Of a stretch of 64,000 bases of DNA, positions 9,766-59,704 are shown in pieces. Both the position numbers and the translations under genes were made by a program. The DNA comes from Fischerella sp. CENA71. GTDB lineage: Bacteria; Cyanobacteriota; Cyanobacteriia; Cyanobacteriales; Nostocaceae. Location: positions 16,812 through 80,811 of the forward strand of contig JANBVI010000029.1 in assembly GCA_024239075.1 (NCBI GenBank), written 5' to 3'. The notes beneath the pieces were generated by a model that saw only the letters and a program-made list of their open reading frames with translations, did not search any database and was not told the origin of the DNA. Position 1 is the stretch's first letter; every line of letters starts with the position of its first letter.

Positions 9766-10221
9766 ATGCTAGACTTTAAGTACTCCTCAGTAATTAATGC
9801 ACCTGTAGAGGTTGTGTGGCGATTTCATGAAAGACCGGATGTTTTACAAATGCTAACTCCACCTTGGCAACCCATGCAAGTCATGCGTCGCGAAGGAGGG
9901 TTGGGTGTGGGTGCTGTCACGGAATTTCGCCTGTTTTTGGGGCCATTACCTTTACGTTGGTTGGCGCGTCATACCGAATACGAAGAATATCATTTGTTTA
10001 CCGATGAACAAATATCCGGCCCCTTTGAGTATTGGGTACACCGACATCTATTTGAACCCGAAAATGGTAAAACTAGGTTGACTGATGAAATTTCTTTTTC
10101 TTTACCTGGTGGATCTCCAGTCGAATTTTTGGGTGGTTGGTTAGTCAATGTGCAACTAGAAGCAATGTTTCGTTATCGCCATCACATTACTCAACGCGAA
10201 TGTGAGTCATTAAGGATTTAA
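9766..10221 (+). CDS. SRPBCC family protein (cyclase/dehydrase-like)
   Basis: About 151 residues. The START/Bet v1-like fold is suggested by the opening FKYSSVINAPVEVVWRFHERPDVLQMLTPP and the pattern of strands ending in a long C-terminal helix (LVNVQLEAMFRYRHHITQRE). ATG at 9766 is preferred because GAGG precedes it by 9 bases; an in-frame GTG at 9745 overlaps the previous gene. Such proteins bind hydrophobic ligands; the ligand is unknown. The last 12 bases overlap the end of the convergent CHAT gene. Confidence 0.8.
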   Translation: MLDFKYSSVINAPVEVVWRFHERPDVLQMLTPPWQPMQVMRREGGLGVGAVTEFRLFLGPLPLRWLARHTEYEEYHLFTDEQISGPFEYWVHRHLFEPENGKTRLTDEISFSLPGGSPVEFLGGWLVNVQLEAMFRYRHHITQRECESLRI

Positions 10222-13200
10222 AGGAAAAAATTCATATTTATTAGTAGATGCACGGCTTGGTTGAATTTGGACTATGATAATATCATTTTTGTTTTGAATA
10301 TAGCGATCGCCTGATTGTAAAAACTTGATTTTACCAGTTGCACCGTTAGCTGAAAAATTGAGATTACGCAAGACTTGTTGCAGTCCATCGCGAGTTTTCT
10401 TTTGCTGTAAACCTTTAATAATGGCTACAGTTGCATCGTAACTTGTAGCAGAGCGCCAAGTAACTAAGCTACTCCAAAGTTTCTGAGAGTTTTTACTAAA
10501 TTCACTCCCCATATTACTTCTAATTTCCCAAGGGACAGCTAATACTAAATCATTAACATCAGCTTGTCCTTTTTGTATAGTTTGTAAAGTGTATAGTGAA
10601 GTACTGGAAAATAATTTGAGTTTGCCTTTATTGGCTTTGGCTAAATCTAAAGCTTTACTAATTCTATCTATATGGGGAGCTAAAAATAAACCAGTAGCAC
10701 CATGACTAATTGCATCTGAAATAATTTTTTTAGGATCAAAATCTGGTGCAGAGAAATCACATTTGATATTCACAATACTTCCACCGTCAGCGATGGCAGA
10801 AGAAGTAAATTCATCGCGAAAAGATTGATTATCTATCGCTTTTTCATCTACACAAATCGCCAAATTTTTGACACGAGCAAAATTAATAGCATAGTGAGCC
10901 ACAGAATCAGCTAAAAAACGCAGATTTGGAGAAGTGCGAAATATATAAGAACCACATCCCGATAATTTGAGCGAAAAGCTAGTAGGAGAAATATTAACTA
11001 ATTTCCCTTCTTCGTAAATTACACAGGCTGCGACAGAAGCATCAGATGCATTATGGCCAATCACTGCTAAAATTTGCTTGTTTTTGACAAAAAATTTCGC
11101 TATTTGTTTAGAAATATCAGGATCATTATCATCATTAGCTATTTCTACTTGTAACAAATATCCTTGAATACCACCTTTATTATTAACTTCATCTTGCGCT
11201 TGAGCCACACCTTGCAGTATTTCTTTAGCAACATTGATATTGCTACCAATCGGAACACTAACAGCTATTTTTAAAACTTTGCCATGACGAGCAGCAAGAG
11301 CATTTTGTAAGTATATGCGTGTTTCGGGGTCATTGGGGATTGTTTGCAGAGATTTTTGAAATGATGCGATCGCTTGCTCATAATTTTCTGTCGCAAAAGC
11401 TTCTACACCTGCTTTTTTCTCGCTACTGAGATGATCTTTAACTAATATTTTATCCCCGAAGCTGAGGCGATTAAAAATAGAGTCTTTGAGTACAAATTTG
11501 TAGTGACTCGCATTGTCGGGATCAGGTTTGACTTCCACCAACACCGCTGTACCGATGCGATCGCCCCAAGGTGAAAATTGAATAGTTCCCGTAGCGCCTT
11601 CTAAAGAAAAACTATTAGATAAAGCTTCTTGGATGCCATCTCTGGTGTTATGATTTTCATTCTGCATGAATGCTTCGGCAATCGTGTTGGCAGCATCATA
11701 AGCATTTGCTGTGCGCCAAGTAATAGATTCTGGATTATGCCATAATTTATAGGCATCTTTGACAAAGTTTTTATTAGCAGAAGCATCGGCGTGCCAAGGA
11801 ACAGCCATCACTAAACCGTTGACAGCTTTACCAGCCATCAAAGTTTTTTTAGTTTGCATACTGGGATTGCCAAATAGCATAAATTGGCCTTTGTTGGCTT
11901 TAGCAACTTTTATAGCTTGATCAATTCTGTCAACATGGGGATTGAGAAATATGCTATCAGCTTTTTTTTCTTTAGCACGTTTAATGGCAAGTTTTGGCTG
12001 AAAATTTTTGGCTGCTAAATCGCAGTGAATATCAATTAATTGAGTGTTATTTTTGGCTAGTGCTGAAGCTATTGCAGGTTCATAAGACTGATCTTTTGCT
12101 TGAGAATCACGACAGATAGCAATGCGAGTTTTGCCTTCTTTTTTTGTATAATCAGCTAAAGTTTCAGCCATCACATCATTTCTAATTACAGTTCTGTAAA
12201 TATAGCTACCCTCACTACGATTTTGGGGATCAGTTACTAATGGAGAAGAACTAGTGGGTGAAATCATCACTAATTTTCCATCTTGGTAAATTTTAGAAGC
12301 AGGCACGCTAGCATCACTACTATTGTGTCCAATTACTGCTAAGATATTTTGATCTTGTATAAATTTATAGGCAACTCTTTCAGCAACAGCAGGATTATTA
12401 TCATCATTGACGATTTCTAACTTTAATAATTTGCCATTAATACCACCTTGACGGTTAATTTCATCTTGATATTGTGCTACCCCTCGTAAAATTTCTTGGG
12501 CAACATCAGGATTTGTACCAATCGGAACTGCAACCCCTATCGTTAATGCTGCTTGCTCGCCAATCTTGGCATTATTCAGATATATTAACGATTCTGGATC
12601 ATTAGGTTGAATTTGCAAAGATTTTTGAAATTTCTCAAATGCTTGATGATAATTTCTACCTGAAAATGCTTGTACACCTTGCTTTTTTAATTCCGTTTCT
12701 ACTGTTTTGACTAAAATTTTATTGCCATCACTAAAACGATTATGGAAGTTAATTTCATCAATACCACGCCATAAAGCTGCACCAATACACCCCAGCGAAA
12801 CTGTCGTAATAGCTGCGCGTAAAGCCTTTTGTTTCCAATTGAGAATTCGGGGATATTTGAGTTCTCTTGCAGCTGGATTCTGAAAAATTACAGGTAGCCA
12901 AGAAGCACAAGGATAGTCTCTTTCCCACTCTTCATGTAAGCGTTCTCGCGCTTGGTTTACAGATGTATATAAAGATTCACCGTTAGTAAATGCTGTGAGA
13001 AAATATTTTAAAAACTCTTGAGCAATAACATCAGGCACAGGTTCCCGCATGACAATTGTATAGGGAATGCGTAAATTAGCTAAATTACGGGCTAATCCTA
13101 GTCCGTCACAAGAGTTAAAAATAGCTAATTTTAATCCTTTTCTCACAGCATATCGGAGAGAGTAACGCAAGTTTTGTAATGATAAATAACTCTCATTATC

Positions 13201-13923
13201 ATTGATTTTAATTTTTCCTCCAGCATCACCTTCTTGACTTATACTATGTCCCGCAAAAAATAAAATATCCCAAGATTCCGTTCTGAGATTTTTAATAAGT
13301 TTCTGGCGTGTGGGTTCTATTAAGTCTTCAACTTTTGCACCTGGTAAATTTTTGAGAGAATCTAAATCTTGTTGAAGATCAATTCCTTCACTACTACCTA
13401 AAATTGCCAAAATCTTGACTGGTATTTTCAGGTGCTTTGTCGATGGTTCGTATTCTGAACTAATTACTATTTCAGCTTGGGGATGGCTAGTAGAGAAAAA
13501 ACCCCATAAATGCCAAGGTAATCTTTGCAGCAATGAATCCTGAGTCTGTAAAATAAAGCGAACATCTTCATAATTACCAATTTGTTTTGATAATTGTCGT
13601 TCTACTTCTAAAACAGATGCTTGATTTAACCAGTTGTTGAAAGTATCTTGAAATTTTTGAGCTGCTTGATTACAAGCATCTTTACTAGAGAAGTTTGTAA
13701 TCTGGTTTTTCGGGATAATTATTAACCAATTTGCTGGTAATTTCTCATAAATAGATTGCCATGCAGTGTATGTTGTCGGAACATCTGGTGCAGGTGGTAA
13801 TCTACCAGAAATCTCAGCAATATGAGGCTTCCCAGATTCACCAATTCTCACTTTGATAGGAAATCCCTTCTCAAAAGAACCCTCCCCGATTTCAAAAATG
13901 ATTAATTTAACCCGCTTCACCAC
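10210..13923 (-). CDS. membrane-anchored CHAT protease-like protein with two TPR/periplasmic-binding receptor modules
   Basis: About 1237 residues. The N-terminal part (to about 345) is a CHAT caspase-like domain with the catalytic His in DILFFAGHS (His226) and Cys in LAIFNSCDG (Cys272). A single hydrophobic helix follows (about 368-386). The rest is an internal duplication: each copy starts with a short F-S/G-D-x-KILVK motif, a TPR-like pair (AFEKFQKSLQIQPNDPESLIYL; AIASFQKSLQTIPNDPETRIYL), then a type 1 periplasmic-binding (branched-chain amino acid receptor) domain, about 459-807 and 883-1227. The plausible topology is cytosolic protease with sensors outside. Start GTG at 13923 is chosen for AAGGAG 8 bases upstream; TTG at 13947 is in frame. 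Third gene of a sigma-like/DUF1822/CHAT operon. Activity on a substrate is inference. Confidence 0.85.
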   Translation of the reverse strand: MVKRVKLIIFEIGEGSFEKGFPIKVRIGESGKPHIAEISGRLPPAPDVPTTYTAWQSIYEKLPANWLIIIPKNQITNFSSKDACNQAAQKFQDTFNNWLNQASVLEVERQLSKQIGNYEDVRFILQTQDSLLQRLPWHLWGFFSTSHPQAEIVISSEYEPSTKHLKIPVKILAILGSSEGIDLQQDLDSLKNLPGAKVEDLIEPTRQKLIKNLRTESWDILFFAGHSISQEGDAGGKIKINDNESYLSLQNLRYSLRYAVRKGLKLAIFNSCDGLGLARNLANLRIPYTIVMREPVPDVIAQEFLKYFLTAFTNGESLYTSVNQARERLHEEWERDYPCASWLPVIFQNPAARELKYPRILNWKQKALRAAITTVSLGCIGAALWRGIDEINFHNRFSDGNKILVKTVETELKKQGVQAFSGRNYHQAFEKFQKSLQIQPNDPESLIYLNNAKIGEQAALTIGVAVPIGTNPDVAQEILRGVAQYQDEINRQGGINGKLLKLEIVNDDNNPAVAERVAYKFIQDQNILAVIGHNSSDASVPASKIYQDGKLVMISPTSSSPLVTDPQNRSEGSYIYRTVIRNDVMAETLADYTKKEGKTRIAICRDSQAKDQSYEPAIASALAKNNTQLIDIHCDLAAKNFQPKLAIKRAKEKKADSIFLNPHVDRIDQAIKVAKANKGQFMLFGNPSMQTKKTLMAGKAVNGLVMAVPWHADASANKNFVKDAYKLWHNPESITWRTANAYDAANTIAEAFMQNENHNTRDGIQEALSNSFSLEGATGTIQFSPWGDRIGTAVLVEVKPDPDNASHYKFVLKDSIFNRLSFGDKILVKDHLSSEKKAGVEAFATENYEQAIASFQKSLQTIPNDPETRIYLQNALAARHGKVLKIAVSVPIGSNINVAKEILQGVAQAQDEVNNKGGIQGYLLQVEIANDDNDPDISKQIAKFFVKNKQILAVIGHNASDASVAACVIYEEGKLVNISPTSFSLKLSGCGSYIFRTSPNLRFLADSVAHYAINFARVKNLAICVDEKAIDNQSFRDEFTSSAIADGGSIVNIKCDFSAPDFDPKKIISDAISHGATGLFLAPHIDRISKALDLAKANKGKLKLFSSTSLYTLQTIQKGQADVNDLVLAVPWEIRSNMGSEFSKNSQKLWSSLVTWRSATSYDATVAIIKGLQQKKTRDGLQQVLRNLNFSANGATGKIKFLQSGDRYIQNKNDIIIVQIQPSRASTNKYEFFPLNP

Positions 13924-14006
13924 ATTTTCCACTCCTTGATAACTCAATGTTTAAGGTAATACCATAGCTCAAAATTACTGCTCAATAGCCAACGAATAAT
14001 TCATAT

Positions 14007-15164
14007 CTAAATCACAAAATTTTCTGTTACTACTGCATCATTTAAACCAACTCTAACTTGGAATCTTTCCCCAAATTCCGCACAAAACTTTAATTGAATA
14101 TAATCATCCTCTTCTCTAGCTTTAACTTCTAAAAATGGTTGTCCATTATCGTATAATCCTGCTAATTGTAAACCTGATGGTAAATAAGCATGATTCATCG
14201 GATAAACCCGCAATAACACAGCGATTGTTTGATCTGGTTTAGATAAAACCGCTACCATTAAGGCTACAGGATTACCATCTAACTGCATTCCTAAATCCAT
14301 GATGCGTCTAGCACTCACCGCAGGATGATTAGGTTTTAGAGTCCACAAAATTTCTGCAAGAGTCCAACGTGTTTCTTCATCTTCAGTAGTTTGAATTAAA
14401 TGAACCAAAATATCTAGAAGTTCGGATGAAGTATGACTATTATTATTATTCTCAATATTTTCACGACGATTGTTGAACTTTTTTGACAAAAATTTAGTTG
14501 GTAAACATTTTTGCCAACTATGATTAGGGTATAATTGCTCGATAATTTGCCAGATAATATCGGGTGATTCTAATTTCAATCCTCTGACACGTTTAATAGA
14601 ACGGAAAGCAAACTGAGGTTTGATTTTACTCGTGAATTCTTCAACAGTTTGCCACTCAGTTGTGTAAATATTTTCCAGCCACGATCGCAAAGAAACTAAA
14701 TGCGATCGCTCAATTAATTCATCTAATGGCTGTAGCTGATTAAGATCAATTTCTGTTGCTGTGACATGAGGTAAAAATCCCCAAATCTTACCCTCTTTGC
14801 AGGTTTGATTAATTTCAACAACCACATAACCAATGCGATCATCCCAAACCTCAGGCGGAATTTCACAAATGCGATCGCCTGTGCGAATCGCTCGACATTC
14901 CAAATGTCCTACCCCAGTCAACACCAAATCAGCAACATTATCAATTAACCTTCTATAAGGATTCCAACTATAACTAGATGCTAAATCTGTAGGAATATCT
15001 AGCATGTGCAAATAAGTATTAACTACCTGCACAGCTAAAGTATTTAAATAGACTTGTTTGGCTTTTGATTGTGTTGGTTGTTCCCTGGCAAATCTGAGGG
15101 CATTTTCTCGGAATTCTTCCGAAATCGGAATAGATATGGTTTGATGTTCGATTATGTAATTCAT
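14007..15164 (-). CDS. DUF1822 family protein
   Basis: 385 residues from ATG 15164 (a TTG at 15185 is in frame). It has the DUF1822 features: TLAVQVVNTYLHMLDIPTDL with SYSWNPYRRL shortly after (residues about 40-70), then LVLTGVGHLECRAI and the PPEVWDDRIGYVVVEIN strand. No transmembrane segment or enzyme motif is seen. The family is mostly cyanobacterial and uncharacterised. The gene starts 27 bases after the sigma-like gene and ends about 83 bases before the CHAT gene, all on the minus strand, so the three are probably one transcript. As the middle gene it could be the regulator or protease substrate linking the other two; that is a guess from order only. Confidence 0.75.
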   Translation of the reverse strand: MNYIIEHQTISIPISEEFRENALRFAREQPTQSKAKQVYLNTLAVQVVNTYLHMLDIPTDLASSYSWNPYRRLIDNVADLVLTGVGHLECRAIRTGDRICEIPPEVWDDRIGYVVVEINQTCKEGKIWGFLPHVTATEIDLNQLQPLDELIERSHLVSLRSWLENIYTTEWQTVEEFTSKIKPQFAFRSIKRVRGLKLESPDIIWQIIEQLYPNHSWQKCLPTKFLSKKFNNRRENIENNNNSHTSSELLDILVHLIQTTEDEETRWTLAEILWTLKPNHPAVSARRIMDLGMQLDGNPVALMVAVLSKPDQTIAVLLRVYPMNHAYLPSGLQLAGLYDNGQPFLEVKAREEDDYIQLKFCAEFGERFQVRVGLNDAVVTENFVI

Positions 15165-15191
15165 AGTTGTAGATTTCAACTTCAAATACAG

Positions 15192-15839
15192 TTAATCAAG
15201 ATAACCTTGGGATTTACAAAACTCTTCCAAAATTGGAAGACATTTTCTTTGGTAGAAACCACTGACAGTGGTAATAGATACATCAAAATCTTGAGATATA
15301 TCTTTCCAAGCAATTTCTAAAATAAAACGGCGTTCAATCAAAACTTGACAATTAATATCAGGGCGATCGCTAATATGAATCCGCTGTAATTTCTTGGCTT
15401 CTGTTGTCAGCCATTCCTGAATATCTTTGATTAGGGGAGATGGTTCGGGTGGTGCGGGAATTAAACTTACCGGATCTATTTCTTCGCCATTTTCTCCGAT
15501 TACAGGAGAAATGGTTTTTATCCGAGTTTCTTGTCTGCTGCGGTAAATATCCTTCAGGCGATACTTCAAGTAAATATTTAACCAGCATGTCACACAACCT
15601 TTATTTGGATTGTAAGCTTCTTTAGCAGTTGTGGCTTCACAGAGATTTTGACAGAAATATATCCAAGTTTGCTGCAAAGCTTCCTCAGCATCAGATACAG
15701 CAATAGTTGGCGATAATTTACCCGACTTTTGAATCAGATAAATAATTTTATTTAATTTCCTTTTGCGTTCTAAACTACCCCTCGGATGTTGACAAGCATC
15801 TTGAACAAGTTGGAGGATTTGCGCTTTGAATTCATCCAT
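15192..15839 (-). CDS. sigma-70-like (ECF-type) regulatory protein
   Basis: 215 residues. A region-2-like segment (DAEEALQQTWIYFCQNLCE... GCVTCWLNIYLKYRLKDIYR, about 50-103) is followed by a Pro-rich linker and a C-terminal helix-turn-helix that looks like sigma region 4 (ERRFILEIAWKDISQDFDVSITTVSGFYQRKCL, about 168-200). This is the layout of a small alternative sigma factor or sigma-derived DNA-binding protein. First gene of the trio with DUF1822 and CHAT. Core polymerase binding cannot be confirmed by eye. Start ATG at 15839. Confidence 0.7.
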   Translation of the reverse strand: MDEFKAQILQLVQDACQHPRGSLERKRKLNKIIYLIQKSGKLSPTIAVSDAEEALQQTWIYFCQNLCEATTAKEAYNPNKGCVTCWLNIYLKYRLKDIYRSRQETRIKTISPVIGENGEEIDPVSLIPAPPEPSPLIKDIQEWLTTEAKKLQRIHISDRPDINCQVLIERRFILEIAWKDISQDFDVSITTVSGFYQRKCLPILEEFCKSQGYLD

Positions 15840-15933
15840 ACTGTAAAGAATTAATTAACTTTTAACAGTCTTAGCTCAACCTACTGCTACAGTTTATAGG
15901 GGCGTTTATCCAGATTTGATTTCACTTCCGTAA

Positions 15934-15999
15934 TCAGAATTTTTCCAAAACTCCCAAGGGGACTGTAATACCAGCAATTACCAAAATTAAATTCTTCAT
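15934..15999 (-). CDS. possible 21-residue hydrophobic peptide
   Basis: Short ORF beginning MKNLILVIAGITVPLG and ending EKF. It has a plausible ribosome site (GGAAG, 5 bases before the ATG) and lies only 12 bases after the stop of the Gly/Cys-tailed membrane protein, on the same strand, and ahead of the sigma-like gene. It would be a single hydrophobic helix. Too short to judge by composition; could be chance. Confidence 0.3.
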   Translation of the reverse strand: MKNLILVIAGITVPLGVLEKF

Positions 16000-16011: not shown

Positions 16012-17517
16012 TTAACCGCCACACCCGCCACACCCAGCACCACATCCAGCACCGCAACCAGCGCTACAACCACTACCGCCACCATCCCCACTACAGCCAG
16101 CAGTAAAACCAATATCACCGCCACTACTAGTACTACTGATAGTGCTTGGCGCTGCGAAGGCTTGTTTTAAATCTGCGAAAGAATCTATTAAGACTGCACT
16201 ACCAAATAAAGCAAAAGCAAATGCAATGTCAGATGATTTAGAGTAAGACGAGCGATAGTAATTAAGAGTGCGATCGCCAGATCGAGTCCGGTGTGGTTTA
16301 GCCAATAGCGAGAATCCAATAATAGCACTCACAATGCACATTACTATTAACAAACCTACAGGTTTATCGCGGGAAATTCCCACGATAATCTTGCTGATTC
16401 CCAACAGCAATAATACTAAGACGGGTGTTGCAGTTGCAATTTGAATCATCTTTGCTTGGCGATCGCTAACTAATAAACCTTGATTTTGCAAGTTTCGCTT
16501 AATCGAATTTGTTGCTGATATTACCCTTGTGCGGATAGTTTCAATCGGAGCATAATTAGTACCACTAATGCTTTCCTCAATCAGTGCTTCTGCTATTGAT
16601 TTTTCCAAACGGTGACTATTGGCAGATGGAGCTTTTTCTAGATGTAAAGTACGGCTTGTCGCTGATACTTTCAGAACTTTATCTTGAACAAGTTTAGCGA
16701 TCGCAGCATCTACGGCTCTATATGCGCCAACATTTAAATATGCTAATTCATAAGCATCTAGAGAACTAGATTCACCCAGAGAATTATTCACAGATGTACT
16801 TAAAAACCAACGCAAAAATCTAGTGCAGAAAAAAGCAAAAATTGCTAGTACAAAATAAAACCAGAGAAACTCAGACCCATTTAAATTCAGTGGATTATTA
16901 ATCGAAGCTGCTAATAAAGGCTCATTGTTTGCTACTATTAATCCCAAAGAAAATGGCATGACTAAAACTGGTGATATATTTCCTAAAGAACGTAGTCTCA
17001 AACGAGCTAAATTTATCTTGGGAAACTTGATTAATAATTTAGGTAAAATCCAGTTTTCTTGAATATTCACCCGCACAAACTTGGTATCACTACCAAAACG
17101 AATATGCGGTGTTGACCAAATATCTGCTGGTGGAATTTGCCCAAAAAAATGCTTGTAACTTGCCAAAGTCTGAACATAGAAATCTTGAAATTTATGATGT
17201 TCAACACTACCACCACGAGTCGGATTGTGATGCAGTGGTCTTTGTAAAACATTTGCACAAAATTCGTTCCAATAAGAATGTGTATAAGTTAGGTGGAGAT
17301 GCCAAACTTGATCTACTTGTTCTGATGGCGTTACCGTATGTCCTGCAACAACTGATAAAAAAGCAAACTTTTTATACTCCTCAATTGCCCGTTTTGTATA
17401 TTCAACACTCCAACCATTTTCTTTCGCTAGTCTCTTGCTGAACGGATAAACAGCATCATTTTCATCTAAAGAAAACGCTTGAATACGTGTATATAATTCT
17501 GCTTGTTGAAGATTCAT
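16012..17517 (-). CDS. TIGR04222-like membrane protein with GRDP-like N-terminus and Gly/Cys tail
   Basis: About 501 residues from ATG 17517, which has AGGAAA 5 bases upstream (GTG 17535 is also in frame). The N-terminal 130 residues hold a glycine-rich-domain-protein-like motif, DQVWHLHLTYTHSYW, seen also in plant GRDP proteins. The middle has several membrane helices (about 200-240 and 350-400) around a soluble segment, AYELAYLNVGAYRAVDAAIAKLVQDKVL, that matches the TIGR04222 type. The end is a low-complexity tail with eight Cys among Gly, Ala and Ser (GCSAGCGAGCGAGCGGCGG). Function of the family unknown. Upstream of the sigma-like/CHAT operon on the same strand. Confidence 0.72.
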   Translation of the reverse strand: MNLQQAELYTRIQAFSLDENDAVYPFSKRLAKENGWSVEYTKRAIEEYKKFAFLSVVAGHTVTPSEQVDQVWHLHLTYTHSYWNEFCANVLQRPLHHNPTRGGSVEHHKFQDFYVQTLASYKHFFGQIPPADIWSTPHIRFGSDTKFVRVNIQENWILPKLLIKFPKINLARLRLRSLGNISPVLVMPFSLGLIVANNEPLLAASINNPLNLNGSEFLWFYFVLAIFAFFCTRFLRWFLSTSVNNSLGESSSLDAYELAYLNVGAYRAVDAAIAKLVQDKVLKVSATSRTLHLEKAPSANSHRLEKSIAEALIEESISGTNYAPIETIRTRVISATNSIKRNLQNQGLLVSDRQAKMIQIATATPVLVLLLLGISKIIVGISRDKPVGLLIVMCIVSAIIGFSLLAKPHRTRSGDRTLNYYRSSYSKSSDIAFAFALFGSAVLIDSFADLKQAFAAPSTISSTSSGGDIGFTAGCSGDGGGSGCSAGCGAGCGAGCGGCGG

Positions 17518-18037
17518 AATTTTCCTATCATCCACTATTCACAGAACTCTCCCAATTGGCGCCTTGGTTCTATAAGTTCTTCAGTTGGAACAGGAAAAAT
17601 TTATTCTTGTGTTTACAGATATTTACAATTAAGCAACAATCAAGCCCATTTTATATAGATTCTGAGCTTGAATTTAATTCCTAGCGAATTTTCCATAGCA
17701 AAGACTCTGCGTACCTCCGCGCTGACTCTGCGCCACTCTGCGTTTAAAAACCCTAGCTTTTAACAACCAACAGCCTTGATTTCTGCATAAGTAACTTGAT
17801 TTTTACCGATATATTAAATAGAAGAGCTTGTTTAAATATATGCCTTTTTCTAGATATTTATTTCACCTTTGACGCTGAAAGCTTTATTTCAGGGCTATTT
17901 ACTTCGAGATATGTACTGAAGAAAATTATATTTTAGAGATCCCAACACGAAGCGAGACCTTCGGTAAGCTTCGCTAACGCGACAATGCTTTTGCTGAAGA
18001 ATAGGATGAGTAATCTTTTGATCGCCTTTACACAAAT
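17518..18037. other. gene-free region with dispersed repeat fragments
   Basis: Contains a CTCTGCG-type repeat (17703-17745, with relatives at 40866-40908) and a fragment rich in AGCGAGACC/AAGCTTCGCTAACG (17947-17982) that looks like a cyanobacterial dispersed repeat next to the truncated PIN gene. No gene or RNA recognised. Confidence 0.6.
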
Positions 18038-34894: not shown

Positions 34895-35306
34895 AGATAA
34901 ACTCTTTACAGAAGGTTCTAGAGCTAGCTTGTCCTACAATATCCGGATTTTGAATCAGCAAAATTAGCAAATAATTATATTTTTTCTAACAATTTTTTGT
35001 GCTTATCTTAGTGATTTCTCTTAAGCGTTTATAGAAACCTAGACAAAGCTACCCAAAGTGTAGTCATTTTTTAAGCAGATGCATCAAATTATCGTGTCGT
35101 AACGACAGCTTGTTGTGATCTAACGACAGCTTGTTGTGATCCAACGACAGCTTGTTGTGATCTAACGACAGCTTGTCGTGATCTAACGACAGCTTGTTAG
35201 GGAATAGTGATCGCTTATTTTTATTTTGATATTATGTTGTGCGATCGTACTACTGTAACAGCCATCAGTAAAGATCAGGTTTTTTGTTCAAGAAATTATA
35301 AAAGCT
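34895..35306. other. intergenic region holding the 21-bp repeat array
   Basis: Spacer between two minus-strand genes. Its centre is the tandem array at 35100-35200; the rest is AT-rich and shows no gene. Confidence 0.7.
35100..35200. repeat. tandem 21-bp repeats with internal dyad
   Basis: Four full 21-bp units (35100, 35121, 35142, 35163) and a partial fifth (35184-35200), built on AACGACAGCTTGTTGTG. Each unit holds a near palindrome, ACGACA-GCT-TGTTGT; the fourth copy is perfect (TGTCGT). A period of 21 bp is two DNA turns, so a protein would meet the same face each time. Confidence 0.9.
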
Positions 35307-57004: not shown

Positions 57005-57120
57005 TTGTCATTTGTCATTAGTCTTTTGTCATTAGTCCTTTGTTTAAAACCAATAACCAATGACCAATGACCAATGACCAATGACCAATGACCAATGACC
57101 AATAACCAATAACCAATGAC
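57005..57120 (+). repeat. long 7-mer repeat array touching the recG start
   Basis: GTCATTT/GTCATTA units pass into at least nine CCAATGA/CCAATAA units; the last unit supplies the recG ATG (57116). Confidence 0.9.
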
Positions 57121-59704
57121 TATCGACAAACCAGACTGGATAAGATTGCAAAAAGCCCTAGCAATAGAAGAAGAACAGGGGTTTACTGATTTGGTGGGTA
57201 GACAATACCGCTTCAGCGAGTTTCTTACCTTAACTTTCGGCAAATTTCCGGCTAACTTACCAAATCATGAACGCCGCCGATGGCAACAACTGGCGGCTCA
57301 ATTTTCTAATTATCCAAATTTGGGACTTGAAGATAGAAAAAACTTAATATTGGAGACTAGTAATTATCTTTATCAACTCGAACAGCAGGATGAGGAAACG
57401 GGGACGCGGGGACGCGGTGATGGGGGGATGCGGGGAGATGGGGGATACGGAGGACAGGGGGACACGAGGAGTTTAGAGCAAACATTCTCCGCGTCACCGC
57501 GTCTTCCTCTCTCCGCGTCTTCTGAAACTGCGTCTGCTCCTAAATCTAAAAAACCCAATCCTAAATCTCCAATTGTCGCAGAGGTCAGTCGTACTCTGGC
57601 GCCAAAGCTGGAGCAGAAATTAAAGGATTTACCGGAGATTGGATTACGAAAGGCAGAAAAGTTAGCACGTCTTGGTTTATATAGTGTGCGTGACTTGCTG
57701 TTTTACTATCCCCGGGATCATATTGATTATGCGCGTCAGGTAAGTATTTGTGAATTGGATGCTGGTCAGACGGTGACGATAGTGGCGGCGGTGAAAAGTT
57801 GCAATTGTCGTACCAGCCAAAAGAATCAAAAATTAACAATTTTAGAACTGGTACTGCGGGATAATACTGGCAAGATTAAAATTAGCCGTTTTTTTGCGGG
57901 TACGCGCTTTACTAGTCGCGCTTGGCAAGAAAGTTTAAAACGTCGCTATCCGGTTGGTAGTATTGTGGCGGCGTGTGGGTTGGTGAAAGGAACTAAATAT
58001 GGTCTAACTCTGGAAGACCCAGAACTAGAAGTTTTGGCTAATCCGGGTGATACGATTGAGTCATTAACTATCGGGCGAGTAGTGCCTGTTTATGCCCTGA
58101 CTGAAGGAGTGGGTGCGGATTTGGTGCGACAGGCGATGATTTCTGCTTTACCAACTGCGGCACATCTGAAAGATCCCCTACCCAGTGGTTTAAGAGGGAA
58201 ATATGGGTTAATGGAATTGAAAGATGCGATCGCCAATATCCATTACCCTTCAGATAGCGATAGTTTACAACATGCCCGTCGTCGCCTCGTCTTTGATGAA
58301 TTTTTTTACCTGCAATTAGGTTTACTGCAACGTCAGCAGCAAGCAAAGCAAATTCAAACGAGCGCTGTGCTTGCAGCCAGAGGTGAATTATTAGAACAAT
58401 TTTATAAAATATTGCCTTTCAAATTAACTAACGCCCAGCAACGAGTTATCAACGACATTCTCAACGATTTGCAAAAGCCAGTTCCGATGAATCGTCTGGT
58501 ACAAGGTGATGTTGGTTCTGGGAAAACAATTGTTGGTGTAGTTGCTATCCTGGCTGCGATTCAATCTGGGTATCAAGCAGCACTGATGGCTCCTACAGAA
58601 GTATTAGCAGAACAGCATTATCGTAAGCTAGTAAGCTGGTTTAATTTATTATATTTACCAGTAGAACTACTGACAGGTTCCACAAAAACTGCAAAACGGC
58701 GACAAATTCACGCTCAGTTGGAAACAGGAGAATTACCTCTGTTAGTGGGAACTCATGCTTTAATTCAAGACCCTGTGAATTTTCATCGTTTGGGTTTAGT
58801 GGTAATTGACGAGCAACACCGTTTTGGAGTGGAACAACGAGCGAAGTTACAGCAAAAAGGTGAGCAACCTCATGTATTAACAATGACAGCCACACCTATT
58901 CCCCGGACTCTGGCGCTGACAATTCATGGCGATTTGGATGTGAGTCAAATAGATGAATTACCACCAGGACGACAAAAAATTCAAACTACAGCCTTAACCA
59001 GTCAGCAGCGTCCCCAAGCTTACGATTTGATGCGCCGGGAAATAGTACAAGGACGACAAGTTTATGTAGTTTTGCCCTTGGTAGAAGAATCAGAAAAATT
59101 GGATTTGCGATCGGCTGTTGATGAGCATCAAAAGTTACAAGAAAGCGTCTTTCCTGAGTTTCAGGTTGGGTTGTTGCATGGTCGCATGAGTTCTGCGGAA
59201 AAAGACGAAGCTATTAGTAAATTTCGCGACAACGAAACTCAAATCTTGGTTTCTACTACTGTTGTGGAAGTTGGTGTAGACGTACCTAATGCTACAGTAA
59301 TGCTCATAGAAAATGCGGAGCGCTTTGGCTTGTCGCAACTGCACCAGCTACGCGGACGTGTTGGTCGAGGTGCAGCACAATCCTACTGTTTGCTGATGAG
59401 TAGTTCTAGAAGTCCTGATGCTCAACAACGGCTAAAAGTTTTGGAACAATCCCAAGACGGCTTTTTTATCTCCGAAATGGATATGCGGTTTCGTGGCCCC
59501 GGTGAAGTACTGGGAACTCGCCAATCTGGTGTGCCAGATTTTACCTTAGCAAGTTTAGTGGAAGACGAAGAAGTACTCATATTAGCGCGACAAGCTGCGG
59601 AAAAAGTCATAGAAATAGATGTAACTTTAGAGCGTTGGTATTTGATGAAGGAAGAATTAAAGTATCGGTATGAGCGGTTAATGGGTGGAGCGATTTTGAC
59701 TTAG
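57116..59704 (+). CDS. recG: ATP-dependent DNA helicase RecG
   Basis: 862 residues, about 170 longer than typical RecG. N-terminal cyanobacterial extension (1-90), a repeat-derived linker rich in Gly and Arg (about 95-140, TRGRGDGGMRGDGG), then the wedge/OB domain (about 160-400), helicase motifs QGDVGSGKT (Walker A), VIDEQHRFG (DEQH box), TATPIPRTL, and the late LRGRVGRG (motif VI). It remodels stalled forks and Holliday junctions. The ATG at 57116 is the last unit of the 7-mer array and has no clear ribosome site. Confidence 0.95.
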   Translation: MTIDKPDWIRLQKALAIEEEQGFTDLVGRQYRFSEFLTLTFGKFPANLPNHERRRWQQLAAQFSNYPNLGLEDRKNLILETSNYLYQLEQQDEETGTRGRGDGGMRGDGGYGGQGDTRSLEQTFSASPRLPLSASSETASAPKSKKPNPKSPIVAEVSRTLAPKLEQKLKDLPEIGLRKAEKLARLGLYSVRDLLFYYPRDHIDYARQVSICELDAGQTVTIVAAVKSCNCRTSQKNQKLTILELVLRDNTGKIKISRFFAGTRFTSRAWQESLKRRYPVGSIVAACGLVKGTKYGLTLEDPELEVLANPGDTIESLTIGRVVPVYALTEGVGADLVRQAMISALPTAAHLKDPLPSGLRGKYGLMELKDAIANIHYPSDSDSLQHARRRLVFDEFFYLQLGLLQRQQQAKQIQTSAVLAARGELLEQFYKILPFKLTNAQQRVINDILNDLQKPVPMNRLVQGDVGSGKTIVGVVAILAAIQSGYQAALMAPTEVLAEQHYRKLVSWFNLLYLPVELLTGSTKTAKRRQIHAQLETGELPLLVGTHALIQDPVNFHRLGLVVIDEQHRFGVEQRAKLQQKGEQPHVLTMTATPIPRTLALTIHGDLDVSQIDELPPGRQKIQTTALTSQQRPQAYDLMRREIVQGRQVYVVLPLVEESEKLDLRSAVDEHQKLQESVFPEFQVGLLHGRMSSAEKDEAISKFRDNETQILVSTTVVEVGVDVPNATVMLIENAERFGLSQLHQLRGRVGRGAAQSYCLLMSSSRSPDAQQRLKVLEQSQDGFFISEMDMRFRGPGEVLGTRQSGVPDFTLASLVEDEEVLILARQAAEKVIEIDVTLERWYLMKEELKYRYERLMGGAILT

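Follow-up and report, generated by a model that had tools for sequence, protein, structure and literature searches.

A sigma-like/DUF1822/CHAT gene cassette in Fischerella as a candidate receptor-linked, protease-controlled sigma module

Several described systems resemble a three-gene cassette of the cyanobacterium Fischerella sp. CENA71, in which a sigma-like gene and a DUF1822 gene precede a gene for a CHAT protein with receptor-type domains. EACC2-caspase genes occur together with genes for extracytoplasmic function (ECF) sigma factors and DUF1822 proteins, as one sentence in the relevant part of Kaur et al. (eLife 2021; PMC8195603) records, so that the gene association itself is already published. 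In Craspase, according to the sections of the source that deal with these proteins, the N-terminal part of Csx30 binds CASP-sigma, the C-terminal part binds Csx29, and the full-length protein blocks the binding of sigma to DNA (PMC10028731). For a metacaspase with a CHASE2 domain, an outward receptor joined to a cytosolic protease has been suggested (Asplund-Samuelsson et al. 2012; PMC3501461), and the same account reports metacaspase operons with sigma-70 genes in Myxococcus and further genera. Homologues of caspases are frequent in cyanobacteria: a survey, in the portion cited here, counts 473 putative orthocaspases, spread over 62% of the 132 strains considered (PMC8283722). Among the matches listed for the open-licence literature on CHAT, sigma factors, CHASE2 and anti-sigma factors, we found no work on DUF1822 as a protease substrate.

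The window analysed here is a stretch of 64,000 nucleotides of contig JANBVI010000029.1 (positions 16,812 to 80,811), and positions below are counted from its first letter. The open reading frame (ORF) listing and Pfam agree with an initial annotation that had placed sigma-like, DUF1822 and CHAT genes, in that order, on the minus strand at 10210..15839; the three ORFs are consecutive. The gap between the sigma stop codon and the earliest possible DUF1822 start is 6 nt, and that between DUF1822 and the CHAT ORF is 59 nt; such spacing is consistent with a single operon. A direct-repeat search, which covered the window and not the rest of the genome, found no CRISPR-like array, as the annotation had also stated, and PADLOC returned zero matches for the three cassette proteins.

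Our analysis suggests, with a probability of roughly 0.55, that a signal-gated protease cuts DUF1822 and thereby alters the activity of the sigma factor or of another DNA-binding protein. The first half of DUF1822 would hold the sigma-like protein and the second half would dock on the protease; binding of a ligand outside the cell would activate the CHAT domain inside; and CHAT would then cut DUF1822 after Arg195 of the linker (FAFR|S), parting the two halves. Sigma activity would change as a result, most simply by the end of an inhibition, and a response regulon would be turned on. If DUF1822 is the substrate, there would be a defined target for the cassette proteases, with a predicted cut site and with sigma-dependent transcription as a readout, and DUF1822 would itself gain a function. 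New here are the linkage counts, the substitution of C14 for CHAT, the conservation of the catalytic dyad, the candidate cut site and the argument from swapped domains.

The gene order is widely conserved. Among 45 genomes drawn evenly from the class, the window's own included, DUF1822 is matched in 30 (28 above the cut-off), and the 77 loci gathered around DUF1822 places yield 78 DUF1822 ORFs longer than 150 aa. Neighbours were called with hidden Markov models (HMMs) built on the same locus set and are therefore biased toward inclusion; by these calls a sigma-like ORF lies immediately upstream in 70 of the 78, one of the eight ORFs that lack it standing at a contig edge. Caspase-fold proteases, counted as downstream when a CHAT or C14 ORF lies on the same strand within 1.3 kb, accompany 51 of the 78 (44 CHAT and 7 C14, with Pfam support for Peptidase_C14 in all seven), and both neighbours are present together in 48; in four others the protease lies only farther away or on the opposite strand. 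The sigma-DUF1822 linkage is far above chance, and with 27 CHAT matches in the 7.5 Mb of the window's own genome, chance adjacency to a CHAT gene should be rare. The conserved linkage across cyanobacteria on which the initial annotation had staked its proposal is thus borne out. Of 120 genomes of the order, 113 contain DUF1822, which is also present in 21 plasmid records, in none of 14 control genomes and, at E 1e-5, in none of the phage records searched.

Two of the plasmid cassettes have annotated genes. In a Planktothrix plasmid, a gene with the NCBI name 'sigma-70 family RNA polymerase sigma factor' is followed by DUF1822 and then by a gene named as an ABC transporter substrate-binding protein, which matches the CHAT-module HMM. 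Plasmid pAQ6 of Picosynechococcus PCC 7002 (L195:1-13056) is annotated with sigma-70, DUF1822, DUF6717 and CHAT in that order. The sigma and DUF1822 proteins of pAQ6 match the cassette HMMs and its CHAT protein does not match the CHAT-module HMM; its DUF1822 has Arg-Ser in the linker by eye, but the scanned motif is absent. A second CHAT gene and a gene with a DisA nucleotide-binding domain lie near this cassette.

The CHAT protein is a putative protease with an intact catalytic dyad. The residues that the initial annotation had called His226 and Cys272 are His234 and Cys280 when counted from the first TTG, an offset of 8. A CHAT-module profile matches 141 ORFs, of which 134, all distinct over their first 300 residues, span both catalytic positions; His and Cys are kept in every one of them, the outcome that the annotation's own test called for, and the remaining seven are fragments without one or both positions. 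At E up to 1, the sole solved match of the profile is 8tl0 (E 2e-4), a SAVED-CHAT structure in the part of the source that describes it (PMC11417357). Ahead of the CHAT domain, the columns of Trp106 (144/144) and of Pro144 and Trp145 (143/143) are invariant. As for Glu302, in the MREPVP stretch, we did not adopt it as a residue of the S1 pocket: it is kept in 138 of 142 proteins and disappears along with the Arg motif at one locus (L094), while the FAD clade described below keeps it without the Arg, and the alignment to 8tl0, counted by eye, sets Asp306 and not Glu302 opposite a target Asp.

Besides the CHAT domain (PF12770), Pfam finds Peripla_BP_6 in two stretches (E 3.1e-62) together with TPR-like segments, in keeping with the receptor-like domains first noted for this protein. 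The C-terminal sensor is variable among cassette proteases: in a scan of 57 downstream ORFs, not all of them proteases, the 25 commonest families listed include CHAT (40), CHASE2 (26), Peripla_BP_6 (5) and WD40 (5). The single membrane helix of the initial annotation is clearer in the orthologues L043-L046 (Kyte-Doolittle 1.64-2.24) and weak in the window copy, where residues 375-393 score 1.46, under the threshold of 1.6 and below a stretch at 959 in the second binding domain (1.54). Helix-like segments follow the catalytic Cys in 36 of 53 triads with a short-family sigma gene, and for the window protein a membrane topology is likely by homology only.

The first gene resembles sigma factors at the level of its family. 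A profile of the short family to which it belongs (28 sequences) has as its best match in the PDB 2q1z_A ('RpoE, ECF SigE', E 4e-4), which we take to be a Rhodobacter protein; region 2 is clear at 20 bits, and a collinear second stretch, corresponding to region 4, is weak at 2.3 bits. The sigma-70-like assignment of the initial annotation has support from the family profile, while the window protein as a single sequence has no sigma match in Pfam or NCBIfam. Upstream ORFs within 450 nt of DUF1822 number 73, and BLAST clustering places 70 of them in two families of 38 and 32. Leaving aside one TPR-CHAT protein, 36 of the other 72 match the sigma70-ECF model TIGR02937, and 12 match NF041236, the model for the sigma factor of type III-E CRISPR systems, at E up to 0.01, although both of the NF041236 scores inspected are far under the model cut-off. 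The profile of one long family, longA, finds the sigma chains 1l0o (E 6e-12) and FliA (E 3e-11), and the short family gives weak and partial profile matches to the two long sigma families, with a probability of 9% each.

The build of DUF1822 fits that of a go-between. Aligning 101 sequences reveals one conserved half at about residues 15-196 and another at about 295-392, with a linker between them whose length, counted from Trp178, ranges from about 20 to 130 residues. No other Pfam family scores above the cut-off in the window protein, and the DUF1822 profile gives chance-level matches to solved structures (E 0.08 and worse), in a set whose inclusion of Csx30 was not checked. The linker opens with an Arg in 176 of the 193 proteins aligned, and 139 of these 176 have Ser or Gly as the next residue. 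Arg with Ser or Gly directly after it is present within 157 of the 193 linkers, where 500 shuffles average 69.7 and never exceed 89, and a looser motif occurs in 165 (shuffle mean 87.6, maximum 109). After filtering at 50% identity, Arg is kept in 55 of 65 proteins, Ser or Gly follows in 33 of the 55, and the two-residue motif is found in 46 of the 65 (shuffle mean 28.0, maximum 40). The Arg persists in DUF1822 sub-families of about 20% identity, beside either CHAT or C14 neighbours. Orthocaspases, which are of the C14 type, cut after positively charged residues, as stated in the portion of the source cited here (PMC6426788). Arg195 of the window protein is, on this evidence, a candidate cut site.

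For 36 non-redundant triads with a short-family sigma gene (drawn from 54 triads and 69 sigma-DUF1822 pairs), the pairwise distances correlate at 0.78 for sigma and DUF1822, 0.80 for DUF1822 and CHAT, and 0.64 for sigma and CHAT. The partial correlation of sigma and CHAT given DUF1822 falls to 0.04 (jackknife -0.03 to 0.12), and the other two partial correlations are 0.59 and 0.62. This pattern fits a DUF1822 protein that touches both of the others.

Hybrid proteins in which DUF1822 is joined to TRADD-N point in the same direction. The sister EACC2 systems have TRADD-N as their adaptor, according to the relevant part of Kaur et al. (PMC8195603), and 30 of 120 genomes of the order carry TRADD-like_N, with 47 occurrences among the matches listed. 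One minus-strand gene (L197:4586-6469) encodes 627 aa comprising a helix-turn-helix (HTH) of the GerE or sigma region 4 type, TRADD-like_N and a full DUF1822, directly before a cassette-type CHAT gene, and no sigma-like ORF was found in the 11-kb stretch that holds it. Ten further stretches, covering twelve TRADD-N places of the 47 listed, were picked mostly for long frames. In three of them (L213:1434-2783 and L215:1207-2427, both on the minus strand, and L214:1676-2929) TRADD-N is joined to the second half of DUF1822 only, the model matching from about 155-191 of its 356 positions to the end (E 8e-36, 6e-28 and 4e-14); the other seven show no DUF1822 match. Two of the three hybrids, L214 and L215, directly precede a cassette-type CHAT gene, and all three keep by eye an Arg at the linker start (GWRS, AHRS and ALRT). 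The hybrids therefore suggest that the second half of DUF1822 and the Arg stay with CHAT, and that the first half can be swapped for HTH or TRADD-N parts; in such variants, cleavage at this site would release a part with a DNA-binding or adaptor role. They also connect the two kinds of system that Kaur et al. describe.

A number of observations weigh against cleavage of DUF1822 as the switch, and some of them speak for other readings. The candidate site itself is open to doubt on several counts. Preference for Arg is documented for C14-type orthocaspases and not for CHAT. In the Rivularia/Calothrix/Scytonema group (L053-L056 and L058), FAD replaces FRS at the linker with the CHAT motifs unchanged, and one DUF1822 protein (L012) has hardly any linker. 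The cut that Csx29 makes in Csx30 lies between residues 427 and 429, outside the predicted linker and within a loop of the C-terminal domain, and none of the substrate residues is essential on its own, in the parts of the report that treat this cleavage (PMC10028731); the position of that cut calls for caution over Arg195. The isolation of Arg195 among variable columns is an argument that we dropped, other conserved DUF1822 residues being no less isolated. Arg195 is also kept in 8 of 9 aligned DUF1822 proteins without a nearby peptidase, and may therefore be structural. On such a view, the three proteins would form a ligand-controlled complex without self-proteolysis and the protease would act on other host targets, in cell death or defence, in line with the tie between such caspases and conflict systems drawn in the relevant part of PMC8195603. 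The Arg sits, however, at a linker of variable length, and Ser plus Gly follow Arg there at a frequency of 0.36, whereas elsewhere Ser follows at 0.06 and Gly is outside the eight commonest residues; we regard a purely structural Arg as the least likely of the alternatives weighed here.

Other points concern the sigma partner. The profile of the second long family, longB, is only weakly sigma-like, with SigF at E 0.016 beside an unrelated chain at 0.015. The ECF-type GGAAC motif is not enriched upstream of 69 sigma genes (11 occurrences, shuffled mean 13.35). The middle position of DUF1822 in the gene order could alone shape the divergence result. No nearby peptidase is present for 23 of the 78 sampled DUF1822 ORFs, and conserved Arg columns are found in the sigma and CHAT alignments as well. 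The tightness of the sigma-DUF1822 pair, which is the closest in the cassette and exists also without a peptidase nearby, could mean that DUF1822 works with sigma as its partner or co-activator, and that the protease turns the module off or cuts sigma itself; the conserved Arg columns of the sigma alignments also speak for this. Such a role is distinctly unlikely in our judgement: the sigma partner that lies next to a protease is an inhibitor in the precedents, as far as the cited sections go (PMC10028731, PMC11417357), and DUF1822 with CHAT in loci where no sigma gene adjoins is common.

That last arrangement is most evident in a set of 80 named loci, a Nostoc-rich collection gathered with a query biased to the window's subfamily. 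Sigma and CHAT genes both adjoin DUF1822 in 26 of them, three have sigma without CHAT, three have sigma with CHAT on the opposite strand, one has neither, and 47 have DUF1822 and CHAT without an adjoining sigma gene. The 47 loci, and the fusion of the TRADD-N adaptor to DUF1822 or to its second half, favour the proposal in the relevant part of Kaur et al. (PMC8195603) that the CHAT or caspase protein is an auto-peptidase acting on sensing, with DUF1822 as an adaptor, not a substrate, and sigma as a transcriptional output. This proposal leaves unexplained the Arg-Ser/Gly motif of the linker and its retention in the TRADD-N hybrids, as well as the occurrence of C14 in the third gene place, and we consider it an unlikely alternative to cleavage of DUF1822. 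The sequence of steps put forward in the initial annotation, from ligand to CHAT to cleavage of DUF1822 as a sigma inhibitor, is accordingly plausible, partly supported and partly anticipated in print: the linker Arg, the divergence pattern and the hybrids fit a cleaved go-between, but the Arg of peptidase-less DUF1822 proteins and the 48 of 80 loci that lack an adjoining sigma gene speak against it, and inhibition of sigma by DUF1822 is what we infer and not what we observe.

More tentatively, and with somewhat less than an even chance of being right, the cassette may represent a widespread receptor-protease family in which a signal leads a caspase-fold protease to cut DUF1822 after the linker Arg and so to free a transcription part, as a CRISPR-free counterpart of Craspase. 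Sensors (periplasmic-binding, CHASE2 or WD40/STAND), proteases (CHAT or C14) and outputs would all be swappable, and the second half of DUF1822 would be the constant piece that docks on the protease. The part set free would be a separate sigma in most sampled cassettes and an HTH or TRADD-N part in others. Should DUF1822 prove to be a substrate, the protease-to-sigma wiring known from CRISPR systems would emerge as a design that does not depend on CRISPR and in which sensors and outputs can be exchanged.

The features of the cassette are collected in Table 1. About 97 nt directly 5' of the sigma gene are near-identical in six Fischerella-type loci, the window included, and the sequences diverge farther upstream, which suggests that this block is likely a promoter or leader.

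Table 1. Features of the cassette, in window positions
Feature	Position	Strand	Basis
Sigma-like protein, divergent ECF/sigma-70 type, short family	15192..15839	-	215 aa ORF; family-profile match
Sigma region-2-like part, about residues 52-102	15534..15686	-	Short-family alignment and profile match
Sigma region-4-like HTH part, about residues 163-208	15216..15353	-	Second profile stretch 2.3 bits only; weak longA profile match
DUF1822 protein, proposed go-between and protease substrate	14007..15185	-	392 aa; PF08852 along the whole protein, E 6.5e-92
Arg195 codon, candidate P1 of proposed cut FAFR|S	14601..14603	-	Arg conservation in DUF1822 alignment
DUF1822 linker, variable length, about residues 197-294	14304..14597	-	Mean gap fraction 0.29-0.90 per 14-residue block
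CHAT protease-receptor protein	10210..13947	-	1245 aa from first TTG; true start may be near codon 9
Constant N-terminal region ahead of CHAT, at published EACC2 position	13348..13923	-	Conserved columns; name from PMC8195603, no model
CHAT domain, residues 204-350	12898..13338	-	PF12770 E 2.6e-11; module profile matches 8tl0
Catalytic His234 codon	13246..13248	-	His in 134/134 CHAT ORFs
Catalytic Cys280 codon	13108..13110	-	Cys in 134/134 CHAT ORFs
Putative membrane helix, residues 375-393, weak in window copy	12769..12825	-	Hydropathy 1.46; 1.64-2.24 in orthologues
First Peripla_BP_6 domain, residues 469-807	11527..12543	-	Pfam
Second periplasmic-binding domain, about residues 905-1245, end set by eye	10213..11235	-	PF13458 and PF01094, two stretches; PF13433 at 905-979
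Conserved non-coding block directly 5' of sigma gene, likely promoter/5' region	15840..15936	-	Six-locus comparison

Some neighbouring genes and variants deserve mention. A DUF928 gene lies 3' of the CHAT gene in both cassettes tested (L010:3574-4515 and L143:9042-9857), and ORFs of similar size come after CHAT in other loci; the gene that comes next in the window lies on the opposite strand. At L063:9243-15443, the frames after sigma and DUF1822 are, judged by motifs only, two GTPase-like ORFs and one large ORF that ends CHAT-like. Proteins of about 1040 aa follow sigma and DUF1822 at L172:6443-9571 and L178:1964-5089, and that of L172 has a TPS secretion domain in place of the protease. Upstream of the sigma gene, the window has a same-strand gene (16012-17535) whose product is rich in Gly and Cys at its C-terminus. 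Repeats elsewhere in the window include a 21-nt repeat in six overlapping register copies (35068-35219) and an array of 7-nt units of the ACCAATG type (57035-57139), units that are also dispersed in other parts of the window.

We file the cassette as a variant of the protease-controlled sigma modules, within the EACC2/ECF-sigma/DUF1822 association. Control of RpoE by RseA presumably relies on separate envelope proteases and a membrane anti-sigma, whereas in the cassette protease and receptor seem to be one protein. The two are alike in that an envelope signal, acting there through DegS, leads to proteolysis that frees sigma, as summarized in part of PMC10028731. In the CalpL/CalpT/CalpS system, a signal-activated protease, CalpL, cleaves CalpT, an anti-sigma factor that is bound to an ECF sigma; CalpL is a SAVED-Lon protein activated by cA4, and the sections describing the three parts include neither CHAT nor DUF1822, whereas the cassette protease combines CHAT with Peripla_BP_6 (PMC11417357). 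Prokaryotic metacaspases are similar in joining a caspase-fold domain to CHASE2 or ANF_receptor, and differ in that the relevant sections mention no DUF1822 (PMC3501461).

The EACC2 systems share more with the cassette: a constant N-terminal module followed by a caspase-fold domain, a C-terminus that varies, genes for an ECF sigma and DUF1822 as neighbours, and a sister set with TRADD-N proteins, as given in the relevant part of Kaur et al. (PMC8195603). That account differs in calling DUF1822 a TPR protein and in proposing auto-peptidase activation, and its relevant part mentions no cut in DUF1822, no replacement by C14 and no DUF1822-TRADD-N hybrid. The window protease has a conserved region ahead of its CHAT domain that may be EACC2, judging by position and description. 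With Craspase (Cas7-11/Csx29/Csx30/CASP-sigma) the cassette has in common a CHAT protease, a go-between of two linker-joined domains and a predicted ECF-type sigma, by the sections cited above (PMC10028731). Craspase is RNA-guided, whereas the cassette has a receptor-type sensor and its window holds no CRISPR array, and we do not claim membership for it; the kinship would be one of shared logic, by which a protease that senses a signal acts on a sigma factor through a protein that can be cut.

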